Assembly: GCA_023150615.1 (NCBI GenBank)
Contig: JAKLKO010000018.1
Span: forward strand, 1-64,000
Source: Phycisphaerae bacterium
GTDB taxonomy: Bacteria; Planctomycetota; Phycisphaerae; UBA1845; UTPLA1
Direction of reading: 5' to 3'
Length of the DNA: 64,000 nucleotides
Below, one piece after another: positions 16,561 through 59,967 of the stretch. The translations under genes were made by a program, and so were the position numbers. Positions within the stretch are counted from its first letter, which is position 1; every line of letters starts with the position of its first letter. The notes beneath the pieces are model-generated. The model saw nothing but the letters and a program-made list of their open reading frames with translations, searched no databases and was not told the DNA's origin.

Positions 16561-17340
16561 ATGAACGAACAAACTCTCCGCACCGCACCGGGCACGCGTC
16601 AGTGGACGATCCTCGCGGTGCTCGGCCTGGTGATCGTCCTCGCGAGTCCGTTTCTTTACTTCCTGCTCATCGACATTCCGTCGATCCGCTCGACGGCATG
16701 GCCGACGTTCGTTGTCATGGTGGACGGCATTGCGATCGGCGTGCTGGCCGTCACACGCGATCGTCGCTGGCGGAACCGGGGGCTGCTCATTGCGAGCACG
16801 CTGCTGTCAGCGACGTTCGCGCTCATGTTCTTCATTGGGGGACGGCTGCCGGCGGCTACGATGTCGGAGGAGCTGGCCACCGCGCCGGATTTCACGCTGC
16901 CCGATCCCGGCGGCAAGCCGGTCGCGCTCAGCGATGCGCTCGCACGCGGACCGGTGCTGCTGGTGTTCTATCGCGGGCACTGGTGAGTGGCGTGTCGGTC
17001 GGAGCTCCGAGGTCTCGGAGCGGCAGCGACGGAGATCGAAAAACTGGGCGGCCGGTTGCTGGCCGTCTCGGTGGATTCGCCGGCTGAGAATCAGCGCGTC
17101 GCGAACCAGTTGCGTTTGCCGTTCGCGATCCTCAGCGATGAATCGCGGAAGGTGACGAAGGCGTACGGATTGCTTCACAGCGGCGGGGGTCCGGGCGGGA
17201 CGGATATCCCGATTCCCGCACATTTGCTCATCCAGCCGGACGGCCGCGTCCGATGGAAACACGTTTCGCGCCTCGTGCAGGACCGGCCTCACCCGGACGA
17301 GGTGGTCGCGCGGATTCGGGAGTTGTCGGCGTCGCAGTGA
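16561..17340 (+). CDS. Membrane-anchored selenocysteine peroxiredoxin-like protein, TGA as Sec142
   Basis: Residues 1-100 hold three membrane segments (ILAVLGLVIVLASPFLYFLL; FVVMVDGIAIGVLAV; LLIASTLLSATFALMFFIG). An AhpC/TSA redoxin domain follows: APDFTLPDPGG, LLVFYRGHW, in-frame TGA at 16984-16986, then VACRSELRGL, LLAVSVDSPAENQRVA, FAILSDESRKVTKAYG, PAHLLIQPDGRVRW. Relatives read FYRGHWCPxCR, so TGA replaces the peroxidatic Cys and gives U-V-A-C. Both halves share one frame and conserved sequence spans the TGA. A stem-loop with apical AGGUCU begins 18 bases after it. The domain probably faces the periplasm and reduces peroxides or disulfides (inference). Total 259 residues. Automatic annotation would split it at 16986. 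Confidence 0.88.
16984..17020 (+). promoter_or_regulatory. Sec UGA codon and bacterial SECIS-like hairpin
   Basis: TGA at 16984-16986. Six-bp stem CTCCGA (17005-17010) and TCGGAG (17015-17020) around GGTC; if the outer A-T pair opens, the loop reads AGGUCU, which as I remember it is also the apical loop of the E. coli fdhF SECIS that SelB binds. The loop starts 23-24 nt after the TGA, inside the range reported for bacterial elements. Confidence 0.75.
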
Positions 17341-58917: not shown

Positions 58918-59967
58918 ATGACTCCATCGCGACAGAAGCGATTGACCGACTACGCGAGCTGCGCGGGTTGAGCCGGCAAGCTCCCGGTGGGAGCGACCGC
59001 GCAAGTGTTGCGCGACCTGCCCGTGCATCGCCATGAAAACCTGCTGATCGGTCCCGAGCACTTCTCCGACGCCGGGGTCTATCGGCTGCGGGACGACCTC
59101 GCGCTCGTCCAGACGACCGACTTCTTCCCGCCCCTCGTCGATGATCCCTACGCCTTCGGTCGCATCGCGGCGACGAACAGTCTCTCGGACGTCTACGCGA
59201 TGGGCGCGCGGCCGGTCACCGCGCTCAACATCGTCGGATTCCCCGATGAAGAACTGCCGCTCAGTGTGCTCGGCGAGATCCTGCGCGGCGGCTCGGACGT
59301 CGTCGCAGCCGCCGGCGCGGTAATCGTCGGCGGACATTCGCTGCGCGACCGCGAGATCAAGTACGGACTGGCGGTCACCGGCGTCGTCGATCCACGAAAG
59401 CTGATCACGAATCGCAGCGCGCGTCCCGGTGATCGGCTGATCCTCACCAAGCCGCTCGGCAGCGGAGTCCTGACGACCGCGGCCAGGAAGGAGCTGATCT
59501 CCGCCGATGCGCTGTCCGAGGCCATCGACTTGATGACGCAGTTGAACGCCGCCGCGTCGGAGGCGATGGTCGCGGCCGGCGCATCCGCCGCGACCGACAT
59601 CACGGGTTTCGGGCTGCTCGGCCACGCGTTCGAGCTGGCGGAAGCATCCGGCGTTTCGCTGCGAATTCGCGCCGGGTCAGTGCCGCTGATGCACCGGGCG
59701 CTCGATCTGGCGCGGCAGGGATGCGTGACGCGCGCCCATCGCGGGACGCGCCAGCACCTCGGTTCGGCGCTGCGGCACGACGGTGTCGAGGATGCGCTGC
59801 TCAATGTCCTCGCCGACGCGCAGACGTCCGGCGGACTCCTGATCGCCGTCGATGCATCGCGCGCCGCCGCGCTGCGCTCGACGATCGAAGCACGCGGCGC
59901 CGGACCAGCGGCCGAGATCGGCGAGGTCCTGGCCCGCGGTCCGCACGTGGTCGTCGTGGACCCATAA
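58918..59967 (+). CDS. selD: Selenophosphate synthetase with TGA as Sec18
   Basis: Makes selenophosphate from selenide and ATP, the Se donor for Sec-tRNA. ATG 58918 (AAAGGA upstream) reads LTDYASCAG, TGA at 58969-58971, then AGKLPVGATAQVL in the same frame. E. coli SelD has Cys17 and Lys20 in GCGCK; here Sec18 and Lys21 hold the same spacing. Further: DDLALVQTTDFFPPLVDDPY, GRIAATNSLSDVYAMGARPV, VVGGHS-like IVGGHSLRDREIKYGLAVTG, TDITGFGLLGHAFELA. 349 residues, family length. A short GGU-loop hairpin follows the TGA. A gene finder would start at GTG 58987 and lose the active site. Confidence 0.95.
58969..58994 (+). promoter_or_regulatory. Sec UGA codon and SECIS-like hairpin of selD
   Basis: TGA at 58969-58971. 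Six-bp stem GCTCCC (58980-58985) and GGGAGC (58989-58994) around GGT (or a CGGTG loop with one pair open). The loop begins 14-15 nt after the TGA. A GGU in the apical loop is shared with the element at 17005-17020. Confidence 0.7.

Follow-up and report, generated by a model that had tools for sequence, protein, structure and literature searches.

A UGA-interrupted redoxin gene of a Phycisphaerae bacterium very probably encodes a selenoprotein, with a predicted three-helix membrane anchor

The apparent stop codon within the gene at positions 16561-17340 of the window, i.e., the whole 64,000-nucleotide stretch of Phycisphaerae DNA analysed here, very probably encodes selenocysteine (Sec), as comparison with related genes indicates. 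Read in this way, the gene would yield a protein of 259 residues in which three putative membrane helices precede a redoxin domain bearing Sec142 as the first residue of a UxxC motif (Table 1). The initiating ATG, the internal TGA (codon 142) and the terminal TGA lie in a single frame, and 117 open codons follow the internal TGA; the original prediction was right that the frame stays open, and its figure of 118 codons was one too many. The UGA begins the UVAC of the redoxin motif FYRGHW[U]VAC, and the Pfam AhpC-TSA profile (PF00578) matches residues 107-232 continuously across it with 102.5 bits, the gathering score being 26; the Redoxin profile (PF08534) matches with 69.2 bits. This unbroken match confirms that the in-frame TGA falls inside a redoxin domain. 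Mechanical calling of open reading frames (ORFs) splits the gene into two pieces of 147 and 117 codons, the second of which opens with a GTG within the active-site motif.

Table 1. Features of the putative selenoprotein gene and its product (positions in the window).
Feature	Position	Strand	Basis
Predicted selenoprotein gene, 259 residues with Sec142	16561..17340	+	ATG 16561; terminal stop TGA 17338-17340
Three predicted membrane helices, residues 17-35, 46-64, 74-92	16609..16836	+	Hydropathy and charge counts; N-terminus predicted inside
Redoxin (AhpC-TSA/Redoxin) domain, residues 107-237	16879..17271	+	PF00578, PF08534, fold search
UGA very probably read as Sec142, UxxC position 1	16984..16986	+	TGA conserved here in 28/28 full-length orthologues
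Cys145, second residue of UxxC	16993..16995	+	Invariant in 28; aligned to peroxidatic Cys of peroxiredoxins
Putative SECIS hairpin	17004..17021	+	Arms 17004-17010 / 17015-17021; loop GGUC 17011-17014; UGA-to-loop 24 nt
Pro219, in place of peroxiredoxin catalytic Arg	17215..17217	+	Invariant in 28; A. pernix PrxQ alignment

A search for orthologues in 61 genomes, comprising the genome of origin and 60 relatives, returned full-length matches in 28 of them, namely all 17 genomes of its own family and 11 from three other families of the order (f4, f7 and f8). These proteins are 36-48% identical to the window protein, and every one is encoded with a single TGA at the same codon, within F-Y-R-G-[HFY]-W-U-x-x-C, across at least 11 genera; neither TAA nor TAG occurs at this codon in any of the 28. 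Their invariant residues include Y137, R138, G139, W141, U142, C145, P219, W232 and R242. The original prediction had named homologues ending at the same codon, or pseudogene decay behind the TGA, as signs against it; all 28 full-length orthologues read through the TGA, and conserved residues on both of its sides speak against decay. The genome of origin (70 contigs, 99.6% complete) also possesses the Sec machinery whose absence had been named as a third such sign: selA (528 bits), selB (317 bits, over the cut-off), selD (377 bits) and a tRNA-Sec with anticodon UCA. Indeed, selA is present in 27 of the 28 orthologue genomes, the one without it being 75% complete. The selD gene, which sits in the window (58918-59967, +), is a selenoprotein gene too, with an in-frame TGA at 58969-58971 and a hairpin, GCUCCC-GGU-GGGAGC, at 58980-58994 (6 bp, GGU loop), at a UGA-to-loop spacing of 14 nt that is slightly below the published 16-37 range. 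A formate dehydrogenase was sought in the genome of origin and gave no match above the cut-off.

Sec insertion in bacteria depends on a hairpin behind the UGA, and the 6-bp stem carrying AGGUCU that had been placed 18 nt behind the TGA is indeed found there, as CUCCGA-GGUC-UCGGAG at 17005-17020; it extends to 7 bp around a GGUC loop, AGGUCU being the loop if the stem is drawn one pair shorter. AGGUCU may resemble the loop of E. coli fdhF. With its 7 bp, GGUC loop and spacing of 24 nt, the hairpin fits the published bSECIS rules (PMC13188914). When the sequence is folded by itself, the energy does not reach significance (z -0.5 to -0.9); a search of the window against Rfam gave nothing at gathering thresholds, and generic folding energy compared with synonymous shuffles reached a mean z of only -1.2 at the hairpin, ten other positions giving 0 to -0.4. 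RNAalifold recovered two pairs only from all 28 orthologues, because the register of the stem is shifted in a subgroup with Val for Arg, in which the stem reads GGAGCUC/GGGCUCC with a G-first loop.

Codon use and a test of the stem itself give a clearer picture. The hairpin overlaps those for E-L-R-G-L-G, of which the two Leu codons are CTC in 24/28 and 26/27 sequences (21.5% background in the same genes), the Gly codon is GGA in 18/19 (background 12%) and the Arg codon is CGA in 13/22 (background 15%). In three genomes (L033, L037 and L039) a C-G pair has become U-A by a double change that alters the protein from Gly to Glu. Five G-C pairs with both sides changed belong to the shifted, Val-for-Arg register and were not counted as compensation. 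More distant members, in which Gln replaces Arg, have stems such as CUCCAA-GGUC-UUGGAG and UUGCAA-GGU-UUGCAA. Under criteria that follow the bSECIS consensus of PMC13188914, the best SECIS-compatible stem of 48 Sec homologues averages 6.6 bp, vs. 4.2 bp under synonymous codon randomisation, with a Fisher-combined p of about 3e-15 over sequences that are not independent; the test is not significant alone for many single genes, and its support comes from the whole set of 48. It is thus the comparative evidence that is significant, whereas folding energy alone is not, and this evidence argues that the hairpin is real.

Beyond the order, a profile search of 392 genomes of the phylum matched 108 at E <= 1e-20, and 107 of these could be classed: 66 have a TGA form and 41 have only forms that lack the TGA. 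selA was detected in 62 of the former and 15 of the latter (Fisher p 1.5e-10, a value that ignores shared ancestry); of the four TGA-form genomes without detected selA, three are 67-84% complete and one is 90% complete. With selA in 246 of the 392 genomes, Sec is in wide but uneven use across the phylum. Nearly all full-length relatives across the phylum have the same recoded codon. Both kinds of homologue that the original prediction had proposed to look for were found: Sec forms and, in four members, Cys at the Sec position (L048, L082, L083 and L097). In two of these (L082 and L083, family f61) the Sec codon is replaced by TGC; they retain the three helices and group with the Sec forms of f61 at full support in the tree; stems downstream of the codon are at most 3 bp long, and selA was not detected in their genomes (79% and 91% complete). 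They fit what a Sec-to-Cys conversion followed by loss of the SECIS should look like. The other two (L048 and L097) are less clear, as a possible SECIS-like stem of 6-7 bp, which may be a remnant or may have arisen by chance from codon choice, lies behind the codon, and the L097 genome has selA. Across 20 loci there are no conserved operon partners beyond proteins common to three related genomes, and none of the neighbouring genes is conserved in a way that hints at a substrate or a reductant. In the three related genomes (L104, L107 and L109), at least one shared gene lies next to the selenoprotein gene, including one for a 497-residue protein of unknown function.

The AlphaFold2 model of the protein (mean pLDDT 95.2) comprises three long helices, at residues 12-35, 47-66 and 70-93, and a redoxin domain. 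In a fold search, residues 100-259 matched AhpE, Bcp and PrxQ at Z 21-23, so that the closest folds are those of 1-Cys and PrxQ-type peroxiredoxins. The active site is another matter. In an alignment to the A. pernix PrxQ, a solved PrxQ/Bcp protein, Cys145 coincides with the peroxidatic Cys, whereas Sec142 takes the place of the Ser in PxxxSxxC (the Ser/Thr of the general motif PxxxT/SxxC), Arg138 that of the motif Pro and Pro219 that of the catalytic Arg. With these three peroxiredoxin residues replaced, the site is thioredoxin-like and combines UxxC with a Pro as in thioredoxins and TlpA/ResA; this Pro is presumably cis. The label of selenoperoxiredoxin that the protein had been given is therefore not supported: it has the fold of a peroxiredoxin sensu stricto but lacks PxxxT/SxxC and the catalytic Arg, with Arg138, Sec142 and Pro219 there instead. 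The same applies to the description of the Sec position as that of a resolving-pair Cys, as Sec142 is the N-terminal residue of UxxC and, by analogy, would be the attacking and not the resolving residue. What holds of the original prediction is Sec insertion into a UxxC selenoenzyme, which the conserved UGA, the hairpin and the Sec machinery support, enzyme activity being predicted.

PF00578 proteins with Sec in UxxC are selenoproteins predicted at high confidence and abundant in ocean metagenomes (PMC13188914, PMC2398784, PMC1088965, PMC1794560). The window protein, a PF00578 protein with Sec in UxxC (UVAC), is of the same kind as the Prx-like thiol:disulfide oxidoreductase selenoproteins (UxxC/UxxU; “Prx-like 1” of ocean metagenomes), in which Sec likewise comes first in a thioredoxin-like UxxC. 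Its family is set apart by the three helices that nearly every full-length member has ahead of the domain, a feature judged against published descriptions that make no mention of an anchor. The best NCBIfam match, to the SelL-related redox protein NF040769, which all 28 orthologues match, covers residues 107-207 and reaches 71 bits, where the curated cut-off is 120; SelL proper has UxxU. Matches to ResA/TlpA families (45 and 35 bits) fall far under the curated cut-offs of NF002854 (170) and NF047696 (230), and the protein was assigned to neither group on these scores. ResA, TlpA and CcmG are membrane-anchored extracytoplasmic redoxins in which CxxC is combined with a Pro ahead of the next strand; in contrast, the window protein has Sec for Cys and three helices where they have one anchor. 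The overall fold is shared with PrxQ/Bcp/AhpE and PrxU, but in PrxU the Sec is peroxidatic (TxxU), whereas that of the window protein lies three residues earlier and is not accompanied by the catalytic Pro, Thr/Ser and Arg. The arrangement had been put forward as one not known for a Sec-peroxiredoxin. This cannot be said of the catalytic domain, as Sec-UxxC Prx-like proteins are catalogued; the conserved membrane tether appears to be undescribed. A search of mostly open literature found no description of a membrane-anchored Prx-like bacterial selenoprotein, although a listing among the planctomycete candidates of PMC4807772 is possible. What appears to be undescribed so far is the conserved three-helix anchor of a Sec redoxin and its spread through the phylum.

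The three-helix tether, already part of the original prediction, is supported by hydropathy in 27 of the 28 orthologues as well as by the AlphaFold2 model; over this part of the protein, no Pfam family matches more than one member. On average, Lys and Arg together number 2.7 in the N-terminal segment and 3.9 in loop 2, as compared with 1.0 in loop 1 and 1.1 in the segment that follows helix 3. By the positive-inside rule, this pattern predicts an N-terminus inside the cell and therefore a redoxin domain, with its Sec site, outside the cytoplasm. One Sec form (L090) appears to begin with a lipoprotein signal in place of the three helices, another route to an extracytoplasmic location.

Taken together, these features would describe an extracytoplasmic, membrane-tethered selenothiol oxidoreductase, a reading that we regard as likely. 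SelB, tRNA-Sec(UCA) and the hairpin would direct Sec insertion at the UGA, and the helices would tether the redoxin domain to the cytoplasmic membrane on its extracytoplasmic side, where the UxxC Sec would serve as the attacking selenolate in thiol-disulfide exchange or in reduction of an oxidised substrate. The resulting selenenylsulfide would be resolved by Cys145, and a dithiol relay in the periplasm would re-reduce the enzyme, for example through the genome's DsbD-type protein (one over the cut-off). The computational evidence covers the gene, its conserved UGA and constrained hairpin, the Sec machinery, the helices and the fold; the topology, the chemistry and the use of DsbD as reductant are what we infer in this scheme.

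Because of the fold, a serious rival, if a distinctly less probable one, is a membrane-bound selenoperoxidase whose UxxC, at the surface of the membrane, reduces H2O2 or lipid hydroperoxides, the intramolecular selenenylsulfide so formed being re-opened by a dithiol donor. Cys145 does lie at the peroxidatic position of the 1-Cys and PrxQ-type proteins that the domain most resembles, and Sec is favoured in peroxidases; however, the peroxide-activating motif Pro, the Thr/Ser and the catalytic Arg are all replaced, the last by an invariant Pro. We consider it improbable that the protein is a genuine selenoprotein with its redoxin domain in the cytoplasm, i.e., a membrane-tethered oxidoreductase working with thioredoxin. 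Such domains usually draw their electrons from thioredoxin and the extracytoplasmic topology is a predicted one, but positive charges gather family-wide in the N-terminal segment and in the loop joining helices 2 and 3, which places the domain outside, and the homologous Sec domain of L090 lies behind an apparent lipoprotein signal. It is hardly credible that translation really stops at the TGA, or that an error or a pseudogene lesion put it there, leaving two separate proteins or none: a GTG directly behind it does open an ORF of 117 codons, but the TGA is shared by all 28 orthologues and is never another stop, domain match and conservation run on across it, the hairpin is constrained, the Sec machinery is present, and a product restarted at the GTG would miss the opening strand as well as the first residue of the active site.

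The preferred reading, that of an extracytoplasmic selenothiol oxidoreductase, extends the Prx-like selenoproteins by a membrane-anchored member that is probably extracytoplasmic, and poses the question of how a Sec site stays reduced outside the cytoplasm. More tentatively, and at somewhat less than even chances, the genes may represent an undescribed phylum-wide family whose Sec site is presented at the outer face of the cytoplasmic membrane by a dedicated anchor of three helices, and which works there as a membrane selenoreductase or selenoperoxidase. As ordinary gene-finding cuts the gene in two and no NCBIfam model matches above its cut-off, a widespread, strongly conserved protein may go unannotated across the phylum. 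The family also offers natural experiments, on the one hand in Cys conversions nested among Sec forms, with hairpin loss and selA not detected, and on the other hand in an RNA pair kept in coincidence with an amino-acid change (Gly to Glu).
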